Below are positions 52,575-63,358 of a stretch of 64,000 bases of DNA, piece after piece. Made by a program: the position numbers and the translations under genes. The notes below the pieces were generated by a model that saw nothing but the letters and a program-made list of their open reading frames with translations, did no database searches and was not told where the DNA came from. This DNA comes from an uncultured Spirochaetaceae bacterium (GTDB lineage Bacteria > Spirochaetota > Spirochaetia > Sphaerochaetales > Sphaerochaetaceae). Within the stretch, counting starts at the first letter, position 1; each line of letters opens with the position of its first letter. The stretch covers positions 1-64,000 of the forward strand of contig CALXMP010000004.1 in assembly GCA_944389505.1 (NCBI GenBank), read 5' to 3'.

Positions 52575-54650
52575 TCAGACATAGAAGAGGATTTCAGAAT
52601 ATGTAGGAACAGGCCATGAGGATTTATCAGCAAATGTCTCAAGTTCATCGCTGATTCTCCTCGCAGCTTCCATTGCAGGGATAATCCTGTCAGCTGCATA
52701 GAAGGCGGCCTTCTCAGTCTCCTCAGGGCTTGCTGCAACGCATTCATCGAGCTCATCGGTCTTGAGCATCAGCTCATCACAGAGCGAGCTGACCTTCGCG
52801 CAGAGAGCCTTGTCCGCATTGGCGGCAACGCCTATGCTCTCCTTGGTCTGTACAGAAGAAGCCAGGGATGCGGAGAAGCGGAGCGAAGCCGGGAGGATCT
52901 GCCTCCTCAGCATCTCGATCATCGTGACAGCCTCGATATGTATTGCCTTCTGATACTCATCGAGCGATATCTCGAGTCTGGATTCCATCTCCTCCTTCGT
53001 ATATACCTTGTGCCTCTTAAAGAGCTCAACATTCTTATCGTCGCAGTAATGGACAAGGGCATCTGGTGTTCTCTTGTAGTTCGAAAGTCCTCTTTTCTCT
53101 GCCTCAGCTTCCCATTCCCTGCTATAGCCGTTTCCATTGAACAGGATTCTCCTGTGCTTCTCCAGCTCCCTCTTTATCAATGCATTCAGAGATGCGTTGA
53201 AGTCAGCAGAGCCCTCAAGCTCATCGCAGAAGTCCTTCAGAGCATCAGCTACCGCCGTATTCAGCATGACATTGGTACATGCGATGTTGAATGAGGAGCC
53301 TGGCATGCGGAACTCGAACTTGTTGCCGGTGAATGCGAACGGGCTCGTCCTGTTCCTGTCCGAGTTATCGCGGGCAAGCTTAGGAAGGACGCTTGTCCCG
53401 ATATCAAGACGGGAGGATGATGTCCTGCCTTTGAATGGCTTATCCTCAATAATCGATTCGATTACCGATTCAAGCTCATCCCCGACGAATATCGATACGA
53501 TTGCAGGGGGTGCCTCGTTTGCTCCAAGCCTGTGATCGTTACCAGCGCTGGCAACGCTTATACGCAGCAAATCCTGATACTCATCGACAGCCTTTATGAC
53601 AGCTGTCAGGAAGAGAAGGAACTGTGCATTGTCCTTCGGAGTCTTTCCTGGATCAAGGAGGTTCTCACCCTCGTCTGTGCTGAGAGCCCAGTTGTTGTGC
53701 TTTCCCGATCCGTTAATGCCCTCAAAGGGCTTTTCGTGGAGAAGGCATGCAAAGCCATGGCGCTCAGCAACCTTCTTCATCATCTCCATCGTAAGCTGGT
53801 TCGCATCGGTTGCCTTGTTGGCATTATCGAAGATCGGAGCCATCTCATGCTGGCAAGGAGCAACTTCGTTATGCTCGGTCTTCGCTGTTATGCCAAGCTT
53901 CCAGAGCTCCTCATCGAGATCGGCCATGAAAGCCTTGACCCTGGGCCTGATAGAGCCGAAATAGTGATCCTCCATCTCCTGGCCCTTCGCAGCAGGCGCG
54001 CCAATAAGCGTCCTTCCAGTAAGCCTGAGGTCAAGACGCTTCTGATAGTCGCTCTTGTCGATGAGGAAATACTCCTGCTCGGCACCGATGGTGGCATTTA
54101 CTCTCTTCACATGCTTGCCAAAGAGCGCAAGCGTCCTCACAGCTTCGCTGCTTATCGCATCCATGCTCCTCAGAAGCGGTGTTTTCTTATCGAGGATCTG
54201 GCCGGTATATGAGCAGAAGGCTGTCGGGATGCAGAGCGTATCATCCTTGATGAAGGCATAGCTTGTCGGATCCCATGCAGTATAGCCGCGCGCCTCGAAG
54301 GTTGCCCTGAGACCACCAGAGGGGAAGCTGGATGCATCGGGCTCGCCCTTAGTCAGCTCCTTACCGGAGAAATCCATTATGACGCAGCCGTTCTTGTCTA
54401 CAGTCAGGAAGCTGTCATGCTTCTCAGCCGTTATTCCCGTCATCGGCTGGAACCAATGGGTGAAGTGCGTTGCGCCCTTGCTTACAGCCCATTCCTTCAT
54501 TGCGGATGCCACGATATCAGCAACATCCTCATCGAGAGCCTTTCCTTCCAGCATAGTATTCTGCAATGATTGATATACCTTTTTCGGAAGCATTTCCCTC
54601 ATTACTTGATCGTTAAAGACCATAGAGCCAAACATCTCAGGTACGTTCAT
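52575..54650 (-). CDS. glnN: glutamine synthetase type III
   Basis: A 691-residue GSIII, much longer than GSI. It makes glutamine from glutamate, ammonium and ATP. The GSIII hallmarks FTHWFQPMTGITAEKHDSFL and GLRATFEARGYTAWDPTS are near the N-terminus, then IGAEQEYFLID (metal ligands), KTEHNEVAPCQHEMAPIF and GSGKHNNWAL. Last gene of the operon glnA-ANTAR-glnN, ten bases behind the regulator gene. A genome with both GSI and GSIII in one operon is unusual; GSIII is common in Bacteroidetes, cyanobacteria and some anaerobes. Confidence 0.97.
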   Translation of the reverse strand: MNVPEMFGSMVFNDQVMREMLPKKVYQSLQNTMLEGKALDEDVADIVASAMKEWAVSKGATHFTHWFQPMTGITAEKHDSFLTVDKNGCVIMDFSGKELTKGEPDASSFPSGGLRATFEARGYTAWDPTSYAFIKDDTLCIPTAFCSYTGQILDKKTPLLRSMDAISSEAVRTLALFGKHVKRVNATIGAEQEYFLIDKSDYQKRLDLRLTGRTLIGAPAAKGQEMEDHYFGSIRPRVKAFMADLDEELWKLGITAKTEHNEVAPCQHEMAPIFDNANKATDANQLTMEMMKKVAERHGFACLLHEKPFEGINGSGKHNNWALSTDEGENLLDPGKTPKDNAQFLLFLTAVIKAVDEYQDLLRISVASAGNDHRLGANEAPPAIVSIFVGDELESVIESIIEDKPFKGRTSSSRLDIGTSVLPKLARDNSDRNRTSPFAFTGNKFEFRMPGSSFNIACTNVMLNTAVADALKDFCDELEGSADFNASLNALIKRELEKHRRILFNGNGYSREWEAEAEKRGLSNYKRTPDALVHYCDDKNVELFKRHKVYTKEEMESRLEISLDEYQKAIHIEAVTMIEMLRRQILPASLRFSASLASSVQTKESIGVAANADKALCAKVSSLCDELMLKTDELDECVAASPEETEKAAFYAADRIIPAMEAARRISDELETFADKSSWPVPTYSEILFYV

Positions 54651-54660
54651 GATATTCCTC

Positions 54661-55212
54661 CTATGATAATTCCCTTATTATGCCCACCGCGGCATCTTCC
54701 AGGCTTATGCGGCAATTCATCGCCTTCTTCTCTATAAAGCTATGAGCCTCGGCCTCGCTCATACCCCTTCTGCCTGCAAGAAGGCACTTGGCCTCTGTCA
54801 GCAGCTTCTCATTCTTCAGCCGGAGAAGAAGCTTCCTGTTCTTCTCCTCCGCCTTCCGGATCTTCTCCCTTGCAACGCTGATTGCACCCAGGACCGCAGA
54901 GAAACTATCCCTGCTTGATCCAGAGACATACACGCCATGCTTCATCATCATCGCAGCCATATGAGAGGAGATCTCATCCGGCACAATGAGGATTGTATCA
55001 GCATCCATTGATGCAGCGAACACAGCGATATCCTTTGAAGCGCTTCCTGGAAGCATCGCATCGACGATGACAAGAGACAGCTGGAAATCAAGGAGCTTCA
55101 TCCTTGCTTCCTTCTCGCTCTCCGCCCTGATGAACGCATATCCACCAGGCAGGAAAAGCTTTTTTATCTCATCGCATCGTGCGCGTTCTGCGACCACAAG
55201 CACCGTTTCCAT
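54661..55212 (-). CDS. ANTAR-domain antitermination regulator
   Basis: A 183-residue protein. The N-terminal 115 residues form a receiver-like domain; Asp51 in VIVDAMLPG occupies the phosphorylation site, but the usual N-terminal acidic pair is missing, so it may be a pseudo-receiver. A coiled coil (residues 112-140, EKIRKAEEKNRKLLLRLKNE) leads to a C-terminal ANTAR domain, LTEAKCLLAGRRGMSEAEAHSFIEKKAMN and onward. ANTAR proteins (NasR, AmiR, EutV) bind six-base-loop hairpins in leaders and stop a terminator forming. It sits between the two glutamine synthetase genes, and matching hairpins lie in both leaders of this locus. Confidence 0.9.
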   Translation of the reverse strand: METVLVVAERARCDEIKKLFLPGGYAFIRAESEKEARMKLLDFQLSLVIVDAMLPGSASKDIAVFAASMDADTILIVPDEISSHMAAMMMKHGVYVSGSSRDSFSAVLGAISVAREKIRKAEEKNRKLLLRLKNEKLLTEAKCLLAGRRGMSEAEAHSFIEKKAMNCRISLEDAAVGIIRELS

Positions 55213-55221
55213 AAAGACACC

Positions 55222-56508
55222 CTATATGAATCTGAAATACCTGCGGATCAGATAGTCATGATTCTTTCCGTTCCTCTCATACTCCATAGCCTCCGTGGCT
55301 CTGTCCTCCAGATAACCGGAAATAATCCGGTTTGGAATGACTTTATGGATGAAAGCGCTTAGCTCTGCCTCCGCCACCGCCTCGGAAAGGCTTCTGGGTA
55401 GCCTTTCCGAAAGCGGCGAGGAAAGCATATCACCTGCCGCTTCCGGTTCTGCTTCAAGACCATCCGCAATGCCTTCAAAGCCTGCAGACAGAAGAAGGGA
55501 AATAAGGAGGTATGGATTGGCGGCAGGATCGGGGCTTCTGACCTCCATACGGCAGTCATGGCCCTCTGCTGATGGTATTCTGATGAGAGTTGATCTGTTC
55601 TGATGGCTCCACGATATCGTCGATGGCGCCTCAAACTGTCCCAGTCTCTCGTAGGATGATGCAAGAGGATTGGCAAAGGATGTCATCTCCTTCATTCTCC
55701 TGAGAATGCCTGACATGAATGACATGGCCTTGGGATCCTCTCTCTCAAAGAGATTCTCCCCATTTTCATAGAGTGACAGATTTATATGCAGACCATTCCC
55801 GCTCTCGTTCGCCAAAGGCTTCGGAAGGAATGAGGCAAAAAGCCCATGCTGCTGGGCTATAGCCTTGACAGCTGTCTTGAATGTCATGAGATCATCGGCT
55901 GCCTTCAAAGGAGAGGAACAGCGGAAATCTATCTCATTCTGCCCCGGTCCGTGCTCATGATGGCTTCTCTCTGGCTTCACTCCCATGTTCTCCAGCGCAA
56001 AGCAAATCTCCCGCCTGACGTTCTCTCCTCTATCAAGAGGAGCCATATCGAAATAGCCGGCCTCATCGAAGGGCGTAAGTGTCGGGAAGCCCTTCTCATC
56101 TGTCTCAAAGAGGTAGAACTCGCACTCAGGACCGACAAGGAATGAGTATCCTGATTTCCCGCTTTTCCTCTCTATCTCGGAAAGGAGGTATCTCCCGTCT
56201 CCTTCAAAAGGTCTTCTGTCGGGGTACGTGATGTAGCAATAGAACCTGGCAACAGCCCTGTCAGAAGGTCTCCATGGGAGAACGGAGAATGTATCGAGGT
56301 CGGGAAAGAGCAGCAGATCGGACTCATTTATATTGAGAAAGCCCTTTATCGCGGAAGCATCGAATGAGACCCCATGCATTACCGCATGCTCGAGCTCATC
56401 GGCCATTATCGCGATATTCTTCTGCCTGCCTGAGATATCGCAGAAGGCAAGGCGGATGAATTTAATCTCATACTCCGCCAGCAGCTCTCTGATATCCTTT
56501 AAGTCCAT
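55222..56508 (-). CDS. glnA: glutamine synthetase type I-like
   Basis: A 428-residue GSI-family enzyme. The metal and substrate motifs are clear: GPECEFYLFE, HHEHGPGQNEIDFR, NGLHINLSLYENG with the catalytic His, and IRIPSAEGHDCRMEVRSPDPAANPYL. The adenylylation loop of enterobacterial GlnA is not seen, so control is more likely at the RNA level. The start at 56508 is chosen because GGAGG lies five bases upstream; the ATG four codons earlier and the ORF start at 56601 would overlap the leader terminator. First gene of the glnA-ANTAR-glnN operon. A GSI-like ligase with another amine substrate is possible. Confidence 0.9.
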   Translation of the reverse strand: MDLKDIRELLAEYEIKFIRLAFCDISGRQKNIAIMADELEHAVMHGVSFDASAIKGFLNINESDLLLFPDLDTFSVLPWRPSDRAVARFYCYITYPDRRPFEGDGRYLLSEIERKSGKSGYSFLVGPECEFYLFETDEKGFPTLTPFDEAGYFDMAPLDRGENVRREICFALENMGVKPERSHHEHGPGQNEIDFRCSSPLKAADDLMTFKTAVKAIAQQHGLFASFLPKPLANESGNGLHINLSLYENGENLFEREDPKAMSFMSGILRRMKEMTSFANPLASSYERLGQFEAPSTISWSHQNRSTLIRIPSAEGHDCRMEVRSPDPAANPYLLISLLLSAGFEGIADGLEAEPEAAGDMLSSPLSERLPRSLSEAVAEAELSAFIHKVIPNRIISGYLEDRATEAMEYERNGKNHDYLIRRYFRFI

Positions 56509-56578: not shown

Positions 56579-56608
56579 ATATTAGGAAAACCAGGACGCA
56601 ATAGTCAA
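56579..56608 (-). promoter_or_regulatory. promoter of the glnA-ANTAR-glnN operon
   Basis: TTGACT (56603-56608) and TAATAT (56579-56584) with an 18-base spacer. RNA would begin near 56572, only about five bases before the hexaloop hairpin. Confidence 0.6.
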
Positions 56609-56661
56609 GTGGTTCTATGCACCAATCTGCATTTTTATCCGAAATATATTCATGCATACAA

Positions 56662-56691
56662 TTGACAAGCGTCGTCCATCTGTCGTAAAAG
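56662..56691 (+). promoter_or_regulatory. promoter of the glutamate synthase-asnB operon
   Basis: TTGACA (56662-56667) and TAAAAG (56686-56691) with an 18-base spacer; the -10 box is weak. RNA would begin near 56698, just before the hexaloop hairpin. The gap to the divergent glnA promoter is 53 bases and contains ATGCA/TGCAT repeats that could bind an activator. Confidence 0.6.
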
Positions 56692-56699
56692 AACCTCAG

Positions 56700-56715
56700 A
56701 GAACAAGGACGTTCT
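56700..56715 (+). promoter_or_regulatory. ANTAR-type hexaloop hairpin (antiterminator) in the glutamate synthase leader
   Basis: AGAAC-AAGGAC-GTTCT folds into a perfect five-pair stem with a six-base loop having A first and G fourth. The loop and 3' arm are shared with the 5' arm of the terminator at 56705-56743. The loop differs by one base from that in the glnA leader (AAGGGC). Confidence 0.72.
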
Positions 56716-56743
56716 AAGAGAGATCTTAGTGCGTCCTTTTTTT
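56705..56743 (+). terminator. leader terminator in front of the glutamate synthase operon
   Basis: AAGGACG pairs with CGTCCTT and, inside a small internal loop, CTAAGA pairs with TCTTAG around a GAGA tetraloop. A U run continues to 56743. It ends 18 bases before the ATG at 56762, so the operon is subject to attenuation. Confidence 0.88.
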
Positions 56744-56761: not shown

Positions 56762-57856
56762 ATGAAGAAGGAAGGAGAAGTCAGGATCAGTTCAGGGTGT
56801 GCGATCAGCGGCATATTCTGCAGGGACGGCAGACGCATAACCGGTGAGGCAATCAAGAAAAGCATTGCTGTGATGCACAACAGATCGAATGGCCTTGGCG
56901 GAGGTTTCGCTGCCTATGGGATATATCCTCAGTACAAGGACTACTTCGCCCTGCATATATTCTATGAATCACAGGCTGCAAGGGAGGAAACTGAGAGATT
57001 CCTCGATAAGCGCTTCGATATAATAAACCTCTCGAAGATCCCTGTCAGGCAGACGCCTAAGATCTCAGATGCCCCGCTTATCTGGCGCTACTTCATCACC
57101 CCGCTTCCCCATCTTCTCCAGGACAGCCAGTTGGACGAGGATGAATACACATCCAGGGCAACAATCAGGATAAATGATTCAATCGGTGGAGCGTATGTCG
57201 TCTCCTGCGGTAAGGATATGGGAGTCTTCAAGGCTGTAGGATACCCGGAGGATGTCGCTGATTTCTACCGGATCGAGGAGTACGAGGGCTATTCATGGAC
57301 AGCGCACGGACGCTATCCGACGAACACTCCGGGATGGTGGGCAGGCTCCCATCCGTTTTCGCTTCTCGACCTTACCGTCGTCCATAACGGGGAGATCTCA
57401 TCATACGATGCGAACCGCAGAGCCGTTGAGATGTATGGCTACTCATGCAATCTGCTGACGGATACAGAGGTCATCACATACATACTGGACTACCTGACAA
57501 GGAAACAGGGGCTTTCCCTGAAGGAGTGCTCAGAGGTCATTGCAGCCCCATTCTGGACAACGATCTCCATAAAGGATGAGGAAGAGAGGAAAAGGCTTTC
57601 ATATCTGAGGAAGATGTTCTCATCGTTCCTGATTACAGGCCCGTTCTCGATCCTTGTTGGATTCAGGGGCGGGATGATGGCACTCAACGACAGGCTGAAG
57701 CTCAGGAGCCTTGTAGCAGCGGAGAAAGGGAACACGGTCTACTTCAGCTCCGAGGAGGCAGCGATAAGGGTCATCGAAGAGGAACCTGACAGGATCTGGG
57801 CACCTCGCGGAGGAGAGGCCATGATCGTCACACTTGATAAGGAGGCAGAACTATGA
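56762..57856 (+). CDS. glutamate synthase glutaminase (class II amidotransferase) subunit
   Basis: A 364-residue class II amidotransferase equal to the N-terminal domain of GltB. The N-terminal nucleophile is probably Cys13 in SSGCAISG after a short propeptide. HNRSNGLGGGFAAYG, HGRYPTNTPGWWAGSHPFSLLDLTVVHNGEIS and DTEVITYILDYL are the family motifs. It releases ammonia from glutamine for the FMN subunit encoded next. The start at 56762 has GGAGG seven bases upstream; the ORF start at 56729 lies inside the leader terminator. The next gene overlaps by ATGA. Confidence 0.93.
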   Translation: MKKEGEVRISSGCAISGIFCRDGRRITGEAIKKSIAVMHNRSNGLGGGFAAYGIYPQYKDYFALHIFYESQAAREETERFLDKRFDIINLSKIPVRQTPKISDAPLIWRYFITPLPHLLQDSQLDEDEYTSRATIRINDSIGGAYVVSCGKDMGVFKAVGYPEDVADFYRIEEYEGYSWTAHGRYPTNTPGWWAGSHPFSLLDLTVVHNGEISSYDANRRAVEMYGYSCNLLTDTEVITYILDYLTRKQGLSLKECSEVIAAPFWTTISIKDEEERKRLSYLRKMFSSFLITGPFSILVGFRGGMMALNDRLKLRSLVAAEKGNTVYFSSEEAAIRVIEEEPDRIWAPRGGEAMIVTLDKEAEL

Positions 57857-59337
57857 GGAGATACAGGATCAGGAAGGATGAGAGCTGCGTCTCATGCCTC
57901 AGATGCGTATCCGAATGCTCATTCGGAGCAATTGAGAAAGGAAAGGACAGGACACTGGTTTTCCATCACGATAAGTGCACCGACTGCCAGCGCTGTGTCT
58001 CATTCTGTCCGACTGGAGCTATATACATAACCGAGGATGAGAATAGATTCAGGCAGAACTCCGTATTCAGGGAGGATGATATACGGGAGATACTCCTGCA
58101 GGCTGAGACAGGCGGCGTCCTCCTTTCATCCATGGGTGCATCAGGGAAAAGCGTACCGATCTATTTCGACAAGCTGCTTCTCAATGCAAGCCAGGTTACC
58201 AATCCATCGATTGATCCTCTGAGGGAACCTATGGAGACCGCTGTTTTTCTGGGCCAGAGACCCGAGGAAGTACAGCGTGACCAGAGCGGGCGCATCGTCG
58301 ACAACCTTCCCCCTCATCTTGAGCTCAGGACCCCGATAATGTTCTCAGCGATGAGCTATGGTGCGATAAGCCTCAACGTCCATAAAGCACTTGCCGCAGC
58401 TGCTGAGAAGCTCGGCACATACTGGAATACCGGTGAAGGCGGTCTTCATGAAAGCCTCTATCCCTACAAGGAAAACACTATCGTACAGGTTGCATCAGGC
58501 CGTTTCGGCGTACATGGAACATACCTCAATACAGCCGCTGCGATCGAGATAAAGATAGGACAGGGAGCAAAACCTGGAATCGGAGGACATCTGACAGGAA
58601 AGAAGATCATAGGCGATGTCTCGAAGACTAGAATGGTACCAGAGGGACTCGATGCCATCAGCCCTGCCCCTCATCACGATATCTACTCGATAGAGGATCT
58701 TGCCCAGCTTGTCATGTCGATAAAGGAAGCTACGCACTACACGAAGCCTGTAATCGTCAAGGCTGCAGCTGTGCACAACATCGCACCGATTGCTTCAGGA
58801 ATAGCCAGAAGCGGCGCGGATATCATCTCGATAGACGGCTACAGGGGCGGAACAGGAGCTGCTCCGAAGCGCATCCGCGATAACGTCGGAATCCCGATAG
58901 AGCTTGCGATCGCTGCAGTCGACCAGAGACTCAGGGAAGAGAGGATAAGGGACAGGGTCAGCATCATAGCATCAGGCGGGATCAGGAACTCATCGGATGC
59001 TGTCAAAGCAATTGCGCTCGGAGCCGATGCCGTCTCGATCGGAACAGCCGCACTATGCGCGCTTGGCTGCCATATCTGCGCATCCTGCCATACAGGGCGA
59101 TGCGCATGGGGACTTGCGACTCAGGATCCCAAGCTCACAGAGAGACTTGATCCGGAAAAAGGCGCAGAACGGCTTGTGAATCTCGTGAATGCCTGGACAC
59201 GGGAGATCAAGGAGATCATGGGAGGAATGGGAATAAACAGCATCGAAGCATTGAGGGGCAACCGCATGGCACTCAGAGGAGTCGATCTCAATGCGAAGGA
59301 ACTAGAGGTTCTTGGAATCGGATATGCAGGAGAATGA
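57853..59337 (+). CDS. glutamate synthase FMN/iron-sulfur subunit with N-terminal 2[4Fe-4S] domain
   Basis: A 494-residue subunit equal to the central part of GltB. Residues 1-55 form a ferredoxin domain with two CxxCxxC clusters (CVSCLRCVSECS and CTDCQRCVSFCP). The FMN barrel follows, with SAMSYGAISLNVHKALA, GRFGVHGTYL, GGIRNSSDAVKAIALGADAV and the 3Fe-4S cysteines in CALGCHICASCHTGRC. It combines 2-oxoglutarate and ammonia to glutamate. No GltD gene adjoins it, so ferredoxin may be the donor. The arrangement resembles archaeal-type split enzymes. Confidence 0.95.
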   Translation: MRRYRIRKDESCVSCLRCVSECSFGAIEKGKDRTLVFHHDKCTDCQRCVSFCPTGAIYITEDENRFRQNSVFREDDIREILLQAETGGVLLSSMGASGKSVPIYFDKLLLNASQVTNPSIDPLREPMETAVFLGQRPEEVQRDQSGRIVDNLPPHLELRTPIMFSAMSYGAISLNVHKALAAAAEKLGTYWNTGEGGLHESLYPYKENTIVQVASGRFGVHGTYLNTAAAIEIKIGQGAKPGIGGHLTGKKIIGDVSKTRMVPEGLDAISPAPHHDIYSIEDLAQLVMSIKEATHYTKPVIVKAAAVHNIAPIASGIARSGADIISIDGYRGGTGAAPKRIRDNVGIPIELAIAAVDQRLREERIRDRVSIIASGGIRNSSDAVKAIALGADAVSIGTAALCALGCHICASCHTGRCAWGLATQDPKLTERLDPEKGAERLVNLVNAWTREIKEIMGGMGINSIEALRGNRMALRGVDLNAKELEVLGIGYAGE

Positions 59338-59338
59338 G

Positions 59339-60031
59339 ATGAAGGAATTTGATATCAGAAAAGATGGTCATGAGGAGATCATGGTAACGGACTGCCTTGG
59401 AGAGAGGTATATCGGATGCGGCATGAAGGACGGGGTAATGCATATCAAGGGAACCCCCGGCAATGCGCTTGCATCATACCTCGATGGAGGTACGGTGTAT
59501 GTCGATGGCAATGCCCAGGATGCGGCTGCTGATACGATGAATGCTGGTCTTCTTGCGATAAAAGGCTCTGCAGGCGATGCCCTTGCATATGGCATGCGCG
59601 GGGGACGGGTCTATGTCCTTGGCGATGCAGGATACAGGGCTGGTGTCCATATGAAGGCATATGAGGACAAGAAGAGCATACTTGTCATCGGAGGCAGAGC
59701 GGGCTCATTCCTGGGAGAATATCTTGCAGGAGGCATCATAATCGTCCTCGGTCTCGGCTGTGAGGGGAAGAGCATAACAGGCTATTTCTGCGGCAATGGC
59801 ATGTATGCGGGGACAATATACCTCAGAACGGACAAAGTACCTCTCAATCTCTCCGACAAGCTTATCAGGAGGAATGTCAGTGATGAGGAGAAGGACCGCA
59901 TCCTCCGCCCCATCATCGCCGATTATGCTTCTGTCTTCTCCATTTCCGCAGAGGATTGCCTCAAAGGAAGCTTCATAGCAATCGAGGCTGACAGATCCAA
60001 ATCATACAGCCAGCTCTATGCTGCAGTCTGA
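59339..60031 (+). CDS. glutamate synthase GXGXG-repeat subunit
   Basis: A 230-residue protein of the GltB C-terminal type, a right-handed beta-helix built from G-x-x-G-x-x-x-G repeats such as GGTVYVDGNAQDAAADTMNAG, GGRVYVLGDAGYRAG and GGIIIVLGLGCEGKS. It holds the other two subunits together structurally. The start at 59339 has AGGAG six bases upstream. It follows the FMN subunit directly and precedes asnB by eight bases. Confidence 0.93.
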   Translation: MKEFDIRKDGHEEIMVTDCLGERYIGCGMKDGVMHIKGTPGNALASYLDGGTVYVDGNAQDAAADTMNAGLLAIKGSAGDALAYGMRGGRVYVLGDAGYRAGVHMKAYEDKKSILVIGGRAGSFLGEYLAGGIIIVLGLGCEGKSITGYFCGNGMYAGTIYLRTDKVPLNLSDKLIRRNVSDEEKDRILRPIIADYASVFSISAEDCLKGSFIAIEADRSKSYSQLYAAV

Positions 60032-60039
60032 GGTGCTAT

Positions 60040-61626
60040 ATGTGTACAGTATTTGCTTACAGTGGGTCTGCTATCGGACTACCACAGATCAGGGGAATCC
60101 TTGAAAGGACACACAGAAGAGGTCCCGATGCAGAGCGGATCATCATGCCGGAGAAGGGTGTCTACCTTGCCTTCCAGCGGCTCTCGATAATGGGCATCGA
60201 CGAAAGAGGGATGCAGCCATTCGAATACAAAGGGAAGTACAGCATAACGAACGGGGAGATCTACGGCTTCCGTTCAATCCGCGAGGAGCTTGAGAAGGAA
60301 GGCTATATCTTCCACTCAGATTCTGACTGCGAGACAATCCTGTATCTCTACGAGAAGCACAGGGAGAAGATGTTTGCTCTCCTCGATGCTGAATATGCGA
60401 CAGTCATCTATGATAAGGACGATGGATTCATAGCAGCTCGCGACCCGATAGGCATCCGTCCCCTCTTCTATGGCTATGACCGGAACGGAATGATTGCATT
60501 CGCAAGCGAGGCATGCCTTCTCACTCCATTCTGCAGCAATGTGCTGCCATTCCCTCCAGGCCACTACTGGAAAGGAGGAGAATTCGTCTGCTATAGGGAT
60601 ATCTCAGAGGTGAGGGAATATACTTACGGCAGCATAGATGAGATAGCTGGAAACATACGCGACAAGCTAATAAAGGCCGTTGAGAAGCGCCTCGATTCGG
60701 ACACACCTGTAGCATTCCTTCTCTCTGGCGGTCTCGACAGCTCACTTGTCTGCTCGATTGCATCAAGAATCCTAGGAAAACCTATACGCACATTCTCCAT
60801 CGGGATGGACAGGGATCCGATAGATTCAAAATATGCAGAGCGAACCGCAGAGTTCCTTGGCTCGGTGCATACCAACGTTACGATGACGGAAGAGGATGTC
60901 ATAACAGTCCTTCCTGAGGTCATAGAAGCTCTTGCCACCTATGACATAACAACGATCAGAGCGAGTATCGGCATGTATCTTCTATGCAGATATATCCATC
61001 AGAATACAGATGTCAGGGTGCTGCTGACAGGAGAGGTCTCCGATGAGCTCTTCGGATACAAATACACCGATTTTGCCCCCAATGCGGAGGCATTCGAGAA
61101 GGAAAGCCAGAAGCGAGTACATGAGCTTTATGCCTATGATGTCCTCAGAGCCGACAGATGCATTGCTGACAACAGCCTTGAGGCAAGGGTTCCCTTCGGC
61201 GATCTCGATTTCGCATCATATGTGCTATCAATCGATCCGGAGATGAAGATGAACCACTCCGGGCATGGCAAGTACCTTCTCCGCAAGGCATTCGAAGGCG
61301 GCAACTGGCTCCCTGATGATATCCTCTGGAGGGAGAAGGCGGCATTCAGCGATGCGGTAGGACACAGCATGGTTGATGACCTGAAGGCATATGCTGAAAG
61401 GTACTATGAAGGCAGGGATCTGGAAGCTGAATACAGGAAGTATCCTGAGGATGGCAGGCCATTCACTCCCGAATCGCTCCTCTACCGCGAGATATTCGAG
61501 AGCTTCTACCCTGGACAGCACAGGATGATACCCGGTTTCTGGATGCCGAACAGCAGCTGGCCAGGATGCCAGGTCTCGGATCCTTCCGCAAGGGTATTGT
61601 CAAACTACGGCAAGAGCGGAGAGTGA
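60040..61626 (+). CDS. asnB: asparagine synthetase, glutamine-hydrolysing
   Basis: A 528-residue AsnB making asparagine from aspartate with glutamine and ATP. Cys2 (MCTVFAYSG) is the N-terminal nucleophile, RRGPDAE and NGEIYGFRSIREEL belong to the glutaminase domain, and the PP-loop LLSGGLDSSLVCSIA begins the synthetase domain, followed by TGEVSDELFGYKY and SLEARVPFGD. Slightly shorter than E. coli AsnB. Last gene of the glutamate synthase operon, so asparagine synthesis falls under the same leader control. Confidence 0.95.
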   Translation: MCTVFAYSGSAIGLPQIRGILERTHRRGPDAERIIMPEKGVYLAFQRLSIMGIDERGMQPFEYKGKYSITNGEIYGFRSIREELEKEGYIFHSDSDCETILYLYEKHREKMFALLDAEYATVIYDKDDGFIAARDPIGIRPLFYGYDRNGMIAFASEACLLTPFCSNVLPFPPGHYWKGGEFVCYRDISEVREYTYGSIDEIAGNIRDKLIKAVEKRLDSDTPVAFLLSGGLDSSLVCSIASRILGKPIRTFSIGMDRDPIDSKYAERTAEFLGSVHTNVTMTEEDVITVLPEVIEALATYDITTIRASIGMYLLCRYIHQNTDVRVLLTGEVSDELFGYKYTDFAPNAEAFEKESQKRVHELYAYDVLRADRCIADNSLEARVPFGDLDFASYVLSIDPEMKMNHSGHGKYLLRKAFEGGNWLPDDILWREKAAFSDAVGHSMVDDLKAYAERYYEGRDLEAEYRKYPEDGRPFTPESLLYREIFESFYPGQHRMIPGFWMPNSSWPGCQVSDPSARVLSNYGKSGE

Positions 61627-61664: not shown

Positions 61665-63263
61665 TCAATGAAGAGCTGCCTTGATGAAGCCATCGAATAG
61701 CGGATGGACTCTGTTAGGGCGGCTCTTGAACTCAGGATGGGACTGCACAGCGACGAAGAAGCGGCAGGATGGATTCTCCATAGCTTCGACAAGCTTCCCG
61801 TCAGGACTTGTTCCGCTGAAGACAATACCGCTATCAGCAATCTGATCCTGGAATGCAGGAGAAACCTCATAGCGATGCCTATGCCGTTCCTGCACGGTAT
61901 CCTGTCCATAGAGGCTATGGAGCAGCGTTCCTCTCTGTATTGCGCAGGGGTAGGCGCCAAGACGCATTGTCCCGCCCTTCGCGACGATATTCCTCTGCTC
62001 ATCCATCAGATCGATCACGCATTCATCACCTTCGGGATTGAATTCCCTGGAATTGGCATTTTTAAGTCCTGCCAGCGAACGCGCGGCCTCGATTACCGCT
62101 ATCTGCATGCCAAGGCATATGCCGAGATATGGGACATCATTCTCACGCGCAAACCTAGCACACTGGATCATGCCCTCGATTCCACGCGATCCAAAGCCTC
62201 CTGGAACCAGGATTCCATCGACATCCTTCAGCAGCTGTTCCGGCCCTATTTTCTCCACCTCCTCCGTATCGACAAACACAAGCTCGAGGTCAGCATCATT
62301 CCAGCTTGCTGCATGGTACAGCGCCTCATTTATCGAAAGATAGGCATCAGGCAGTTTCACGTATTTGCCGCAGATAGCGATCCTTAGTCTGCGGTCCTTT
62401 GGTCTCTCCATACGCTCGACAGCCGCAGTCCACCCCTCAAGATCGCATGGGCCGCAGTCCAGGGATAGCCTCGATACAGCAAAGTCATCAAATCCACGCT
62501 CATGGAGAAGCAAAGGAAGCGCATAGATCGGATTGACATTCTCGTTTCCGATTACCGCCTTTCTGCTGACATTGCAGAACATCGCAAGCTTTGAGAGGAT
62601 ATCATCATCGAGGGTCTTATCGGAGCGGGCAATAATACAGTCCGGCATAATGCCCATTCCCTGAAGCTCATGAACAGAATGCTGTCCAGGTTTCGTCTTA
62701 TACTCGCCACTGCAGGCAAGGTATGGGACAAGCACGACATGGATGAACATCGTGTTATCAACTCCAGCCTCTATGCGGAGCTGTCTTATAGCCTCAAGAA
62801 ACGGCTGGCTTTCGATATCACCGATAGTACCTCCGATCTCGGTAATCACAACATCGGCACCTGTCATCTCTCCAAGCGAGTATATCGCAGACTTTATCTC
62901 ATCGGTAACATGGGGGATTATCTGGACTGTCTTGCCAAGATACTCCCCTCGCCTTTCCCTTGTGAGGATATTCCAGAACACCTTTCCGCTCGTGAGGTTG
63001 GACTTCCTGTTGAGATTCTCATCGATGAATCTTTCATAATGGCCGAGATCGAGATCTGTCTCGGCACCATCCTCCGTCACGAATACCTCGCCATGCTGAT
63101 ACGGGCTCATCGTTCCCGGATCCACATTGAGGTACGGATCAAGCTTCTGTGCAGCGACCTTCAGCCCTCGCTGCTTTAGAAGCATTCCAAGACTCGCAGC
63201 GCTTACCCCTTTGCCGAGGCCGGATACAACACCACCTGTTACGAATATGTACTTGCGATCCAT
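61665..63263 (-). CDS. pyrG: CTP synthase
   Basis: A 532-residue CTP synthase making CTP from UTP, ATP and glutamine. The N-terminal synthetase domain opens KYIFVTGGVVSGLGKGVSAASLG. The C-terminal amidotransferase domain (from about residue 290) has the nucleophile in GICLGMQ and the His-Glu pair in SHPEFKSRP. The start at 63263 has AGGAGG four bases upstream and fits the family; the ORF start at 63410 lies upstream of the promoter and is wrong. Its leader carries a terminator-like hairpin. Confidence 0.98.
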   Translation of the reverse strand: MDRKYIFVTGGVVSGLGKGVSAASLGMLLKQRGLKVAAQKLDPYLNVDPGTMSPYQHGEVFVTEDGAETDLDLGHYERFIDENLNRKSNLTSGKVFWNILTRERRGEYLGKTVQIIPHVTDEIKSAIYSLGEMTGADVVITEIGGTIGDIESQPFLEAIRQLRIEAGVDNTMFIHVVLVPYLACSGEYKTKPGQHSVHELQGMGIMPDCIIARSDKTLDDDILSKLAMFCNVSRKAVIGNENVNPIYALPLLLHERGFDDFAVSRLSLDCGPCDLEGWTAAVERMERPKDRRLRIAICGKYVKLPDAYLSINEALYHAASWNDADLELVFVDTEEVEKIGPEQLLKDVDGILVPGGFGSRGIEGMIQCARFARENDVPYLGICLGMQIAVIEAARSLAGLKNANSREFNPEGDECVIDLMDEQRNIVAKGGTMRLGAYPCAIQRGTLLHSLYGQDTVQERHRHRYEVSPAFQDQIADSGIVFSGTSPDGKLVEAMENPSCRFFVAVQSHPEFKSRPNRVHPLFDGFIKAALH

Positions 63264-63274
63264 GATTCCTCCTG

Positions 63275-63318
63275 AAAAAGAGAAAGGACGCCTACTCCTG
63301 AAAAGAATAGACGTCTTT
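63275..63318 (-). terminator. leader attenuator of pyrG
   Basis: AAAGACGTCTATTC pairs with GAGTAGGCGTCCTTT on the minus strand, with a one-base bulge, a few G-U pairs and a loop rich in U. CTCTTTTT follows and the pyrG AGGAGG comes right after. It lies in the leader only 12 bases before the start codon. It is a candidate attenuator like that of Bacillus pyrG, though the G-start of that system is not obvious here. Confidence 0.6.
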
Positions 63319-63329
63319 GTCTTCAGCTG

Positions 63330-63358
63330 ATTATATTGCTTCAGCCTGTTTTCCTCAA
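63330..63358 (-). promoter_or_regulatory. sigma-70 promoter of pyrG
   Basis: A perfect TATAAT (63330-63335) and TTGAGG (63353-63358) on the minus strand with a 17-base spacer. RNA would start near 63322, giving a leader of about 60 bases. Confidence 0.8.

Follow-up and report, generated by a model that had tools for sequence, protein, structure and literature searches.

The locus studied here raises the question of whether the short leader in front of a glutamate synthase operon acts as an RNA switch and, if so, which protein would operate it and which other genes would answer to the same signal. The window, i.e., the whole 64,000-nucleotide stretch of DNA that we analysed, belongs to the 2.1 Mb genome of an Ornithospirochaeta-like spirochaete. 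On its minus strand lie, in the order glnA-nitR-glnN, the genes for a glutamine synthetase with GS catalytic and beta-grasp domains (glnA, 55222-56508; Pfam), for a receiver-like and ANTAR protein recognised by domain search and here named NitR (54661-55212), and for a type III glutamine synthetase (glnN, 52575-54650; Pfam GSIII_N). nitR is the only ANTAR gene in the whole genome. Divergent from them, on the plus strand, are a three-part glutamate synthase and asnB: gltS, the glutamine amidotransferase (GATase_2) part of the split enzyme (56762-57856; Pfam); the FMN/Fe-S subunit (57853-59337; Pfam PF01645 and Fer4); the GXGXG subunit (59312-60031; Pfam PF01493); and asparagine synthase B (60040-61626; NCBIfam NF006949, above cut-off). 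pyrG, encoding a glutamine-hydrolysing CTP synthase, follows on the minus strand (61665-63263; NCBIfam PyrG, with the start taken from leader comparison). The order glnA-nitR-glnN, with glutamate synthase and asnB divergent from it, is common to 13 named relatives; the named relatives of NitR come from uncultured Spirochaetales and Candidatus Ornithospirochaeta metagenome-assembled genomes.

An earlier, sequence-only reading had described a hairpin with A1 and G4 in its loop that shares this loop and its 3' arm with a strong terminator ending 18 nt before gltS, and the sequence is as it stated. The hairpin on the plus strand is AGAAC (56700-56704), AAGGAC (56705-56710), GTTCT (56711-56715), and its loop and 3' arm double as the upstream arm of the predicted intrinsic terminator (56705-56743), which reads AAGGACGtt.CTAAGA-gaga-TCTTAG.tgCGTCCTT and ends in U7; gltS begins with an ATG at 56762. 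By predicted pairing the two structures are mutually exclusive, as expected of the P2 hairpin of an ANTAR target. Position 56662, where that reading began its stretch, is the first T of TTGACA, a putative -35 box (56662-56667) present in each of the 22 divergent-locus genomes, with almost constant spacing to the hairpin; CGTAAAAG lies between this box and the hairpin. After an 18-nt spacer comes a putative -10 box, TAAAAG (56686-56691), which is kept in close relatives, conserved as CGTAAAA, while distant relatives have AATAAT or TCTAAT instead, and from this promoter sequence transcription is predicted to start near 56698. The computed folding energies of the terminators (gltS -21.2 and glnA -23.2 kcal/mol, z -5.6 and -4.4) far exceed those of the hairpins alone (-3.2 and -4.8 kcal/mol), so that leader RNA left unaided is expected to terminate.

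The glnA leader, on the minus strand, has the same arrangement: a putative promoter TTGACT-18-TAATAT (56603-56608 and 56579-56584), the hairpin CAGC-AAGGGC-GCTG (56567-56554), and an overlapping predicted terminator (56563-56527); its loop does differ from that of gltS by one base, as had been noted. A third leader of this kind precedes pyrG on the same strand, with a putative promoter TTGAGG-17-TATAAT (63330-63358), the hairpin AGAC-AAAGAC-GTCT (63309-63322), conserved in relatives, and a predicted terminator with a U-rich tail (63276-63315). When the window was screened by a tight rule (loop AANGRY, a stem of at least 3 bp, overlap with a terminator) it yielded exactly three sites, those before glnA, gltS and pyrG, against a mean of 0.55 in shuffled windows, which upholds the earlier argument that the same loop and geometry in separate leaders speak against chance. 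The space between the divergent promoters (56609-56661) contains, in most of 18 close relatives, a common A+T-rich element, ATKCA-N6-TGMATTTTTATTC ... TATATTCAT, with a likeness to tandem ARG boxes; an ArgR gene is present in the genome, and from this likeness ArgR may additionally control glnA and gltS at initiation.

Every one of the 44 gltS and glnA leaders from the 22 divergent-locus genomes has the hexaloop hairpin (A1, G4, stem of at least 3 bp). Further away in the genus, glnA is preceded by GAC-AAAGGC-GTC and glnN by CAAC-AAGGGT-GTTG, and one distant glnN leader carries a G at loop position 1. Over 45 leaders of different genes the closing C-G pair is invariant, the next three pairs alternate between A-U and G-C or the reverse, and four of the five stem pairs are altered on both sides; the covariation score of 0.584 compares with 0.245±0.025 for shuffled and at most 0.193 for slid alignments. 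In a wider list of 111 leaders the constancy of A1, G4 and the C-G closing pair is no evidence, since the list was filtered for these features; the 44 orthologous leaders out of 44 are. The leader matched no family among the curated Rfam models. In the more distant genus members a second conserved stretch (CTCCCGGTATCCGG...) lies past the terminator of the glnA leader, and may be another regulatory RNA.

A covariance model of promoter plus hairpin, run over the whole genome, returned four sites at E<0.02 with the next at E 7.6. They precede glnA, gltS, the gene of an ammonium transporter with a C-terminal PII domain (amtB-PII; L158:3299-5098 on G000:C1, minus strand), with a tandem pair of hexaloop-terminator units in its leader, and the gene of an extracellular solute-binding protein, where the promoter-hexaloop-terminator unit (G000:C4:92180-92257, minus strand) is situated between that gene and one for a probable GntR-type regulator and is also found in two relatives. 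The pyrG site is the fifth, found by pattern; the model missed it probably because its -35 box is TTGAGG. A plain pattern search of the genome was set aside, as its 37 matches were mostly noise and the covariance model, though without pyrG, was cleaner. The sequence-only reading had proposed one ANTAR protein for the GS-GOGAT cycle and asparagine synthesis. With a single ANTAR gene, lying in the glnA operon, one regulator for GS, GOGAT and AsnB is indeed the simplest reading, but the reach given to it was too narrow: pyrG, in the window itself, amtB-PII and the binding-protein gene have to be added to glnA and gltS-asnB.

That reading also hinged on the motif being conserved near nitrogen genes in related genomes, and this is what we found. 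Among spirochaete relatives, where genes were named from translated starts and by comparison with the proteins of the window, matches precede gltS, glnA, glnN, amtB, pyrG and the binding-protein gene; a hexaloop-terminator unit stands once before an M20-type peptidase gene (L142, at G030:C20:10061-10114). The hairpin was present in 31 of the 33 relatives with an ANTAR gene, versus 1 of the 27 without. Other spirochaete families contain real-looking sites before gltS, pyrG, glnN, carA and purA. One carA match sits in a genome in which no ANTAR gene was detected, and strict filters left no match in seven genomes of another spirochaete genus that do bear an ANTAR gene. Three further matches in other spirochaete families were discarded as looking like chance, probably within coding sequence. 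In the Clostridia the element is found before glnN, glnA, gltB, pyrG, carA, purF and purA: three genomes reached via NitR have the promoter-hairpin unit before glnN, further matches (identified from translated starts) precede gltB, carA and purA, and the 27 new matches examined in one clostridial family all stand before glnN, glnA, pyrG, purF or carA. In that family of 98 genomes, only 3 of which had served to build the model, 54 of the 66 with an ANTAR gene have the element versus 0 of the 32 without (Fisher p=3e-16, a value uncorrected for kinship). There is thus strong comparative evidence that the hairpin belongs to a regulon of glutamine genes, predicted to be under one RNA-binding ANTAR protein.

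The ANTAR domain of NitR (PF03861) scores 44.6 bits against a curated cut-off of 27.3, and the alignment with Rv1626, AmiR and EutV covers most of the protein. Its residues M165, K142, E153 and R168, invariant in 24 homologues, correspond to M172, K149, E160 and R175 of EutV, of which M172 is essential. Tyr164 of EutV, an RNA contact that stacks on loop G4, is His in NitR (as in AmiR), and R142 of EutV is not kept. The phospho-acceptor Asp of the receiver is present in the window's NitR and in 12 of the 24 homologues, the others having Asn, Glu, Val or Ser, so that control by a kinase is unlikely to be general. Judging from these replacements, NitR is probably switched on by a partner or ligand, not by a kinase; that GS or PII might play this part is speculation.

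The gltS leader departs from known ANTAR targets in one respect that the sequence-only reading missed: the A1/G4 hexaloop overlapping the terminator stands, but the leader lacks P1 and is, for that reason, a non-canonical target. ANTAR attenuators examined in detail use two hairpins, P1 and P2, and EutV-dependent induction is abolished or cut by deletion of P1 or a change in the linker (PMC3369931), so a single hairpin might not suffice. Contacts of the ANTAR domain are restricted to one hexaloop, although the dimer is held to contact both in turn, and the extent to which single hexaloops serve ANTAR proteins was left for further bioinformatic and experimental work (PMC8934654). A search of largely freely readable papers for single-hexaloop ANTAR attenuators found only that study (Walshe 2022). 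Here no conserved hexaloop is found where P1 would stand, separated from the hairpin by a short linker (of 5-12 nt in eut) on its upstream side. A scan for a hidden P1, which took in every A1/G4 hexaloop on either strand of the intergenic region in the 22 genomes, returned scattered and unconserved candidates. The apical loop of the gltS terminator, CTAAG-AGAGAT-CTTAG, was considered as a second hexaloop with zero linker and rejected: it shows A1 and G4 in the window, but two relatives have A at position 4, five have longer loops, and that of glnA differs.

Could an unseen promoter further upstream produce a longer transcript that includes P1, making this a canonical dual-hairpin leader? All precedent studied in detail would favour it, and 19 of the 44 leaders do have other A1/G4 hexaloops further upstream; these are, however, mostly 3-bp, A+T-rich and not shared, and the gltS and glnA leaders of the window have none upstream of P2. 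Nearly all of the 111 leaders have a TTGAC-type -35 box at a near-fixed distance. Counted from where the -35 box starts, the first loop base of the 111 leaders is 35-52 nt away (median 43), and their 4-bp stem begins at most 12 nt (median 3) after the predicted transcription start, a space into which P1 and its linker (at least 17 nt) do not fit. The sequence from the -35 box to the hairpin is, moreover, unconserved except for the -10 region. We therefore hold this explanation to be unlikely.

Less likely still is that the leaders are plain intrinsic attenuators or terminators of convergent sequence, with the hexaloop a by-product of terminator composition. Pairing within the terminator would by itself constrain the loop and the 3' arm, both of which are part of it; the 5' arm, however, falls outside the terminator and is nonetheless conserved and covaries, and the sites are limited, with few exceptions, to glutamine or nitrogen genes and to ANTAR-bearing genomes. 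We give equally little credence to the hairpin being the site of some other factor (a small RNA, a metabolite or a different RNA-binding protein), with the neighbourhood of NitR incidental. The His at the Tyr164 position leaves some room for it, as binding by NitR is what we infer, but the A1/G4 hexaloop, the C-G closing pair and the co-occurrence with ANTAR genes are all in keeping with ANTAR recognition, and the comparison with Rfam offers no other family.

The reading that we prefer, at a probability of about 0.8, is that the gltS-asnB leader is a transcription antitermination switch controlled by NitR. RNA polymerase would start just 5' of the hairpin and, by default, the nascent RNA would fold into the terminator and transcription would stop before gltS. 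Active NitR would bind, through its ANTAR domain, the A1/G4 hexaloop of this weak hairpin at the 5' end of the RNA and so hold the loop and 3' arm on which the terminator depends; transcription would then enter gltS-asnB. The hairpin adjoining the start site would work alone, with no recruitment hairpin (P1) upstream. NitR would act likewise on glnA-nitR-glnN, pyrG, amtB-PII and one binding-protein gene, so that the uptake of ammonium, the GS-GOGAT cycle and the syntheses that consume glutamine would respond together. We consider it fairly probable, from the comparative data, that this represents a widespread form of ANTAR antitermination in which one hexaloop at the 5' end suffices, serving a glutamine regulon that couples makers and users in Spirochaetota and in the Clostridia of the Bacillota.

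The closest known system is that of EutV and the eut leaders of Enterococcus faecalis (PMC3369931, PMC8934654), with which the leaders share an ANTAR regulator, an A1/G4 hexaloop, a conserved closing pair and the overlap of P2 with a terminator; the eut leaders have P1 and P2 where we find a lone hairpin next to the predicted start, and phosphorylation activates EutV, whereas half of the NitR homologues lack the phospho-acceptor Asp in their receiver. AmiR (PDB 1QO0) resembles NitR in joining a receiver-like domain, in AmiR one without phosphorylation residues, to an ANTAR domain, but it is held by AmiC, and no gene for such a partner is evident here. ANTAR regulons were predicted for glutamate and glutamine synthase genes, e.g., in Desulfotomaculum (Ramesh 2012, PMC3369931), which is the same nitrogen-gene theme; the list quoted there is without pyrG, purF and purA, which carry the element here. 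That search model was defined by both hairpins and so likely missed a single-hexaloop class. In PMC4676874, a GS-GOGAT cluster with an ANTAR gene is reported in C. thermocellum, and a NitR antiterminator of glnA in solventogenic clostridia, likewise tied to glutamine synthetase, is cited; a single-hexaloop RNA target was not found described for it there. The leaders described here are natural single-hexaloop switches by our reading, in units of about 45 nt suited to a direct test of the minimal ANTAR mechanism, and they suggest that gut spirochaetes and clostridia have a glutamine-wide regulon that extends to the synthesis of CTP, purines and carbamoyl phosphate.
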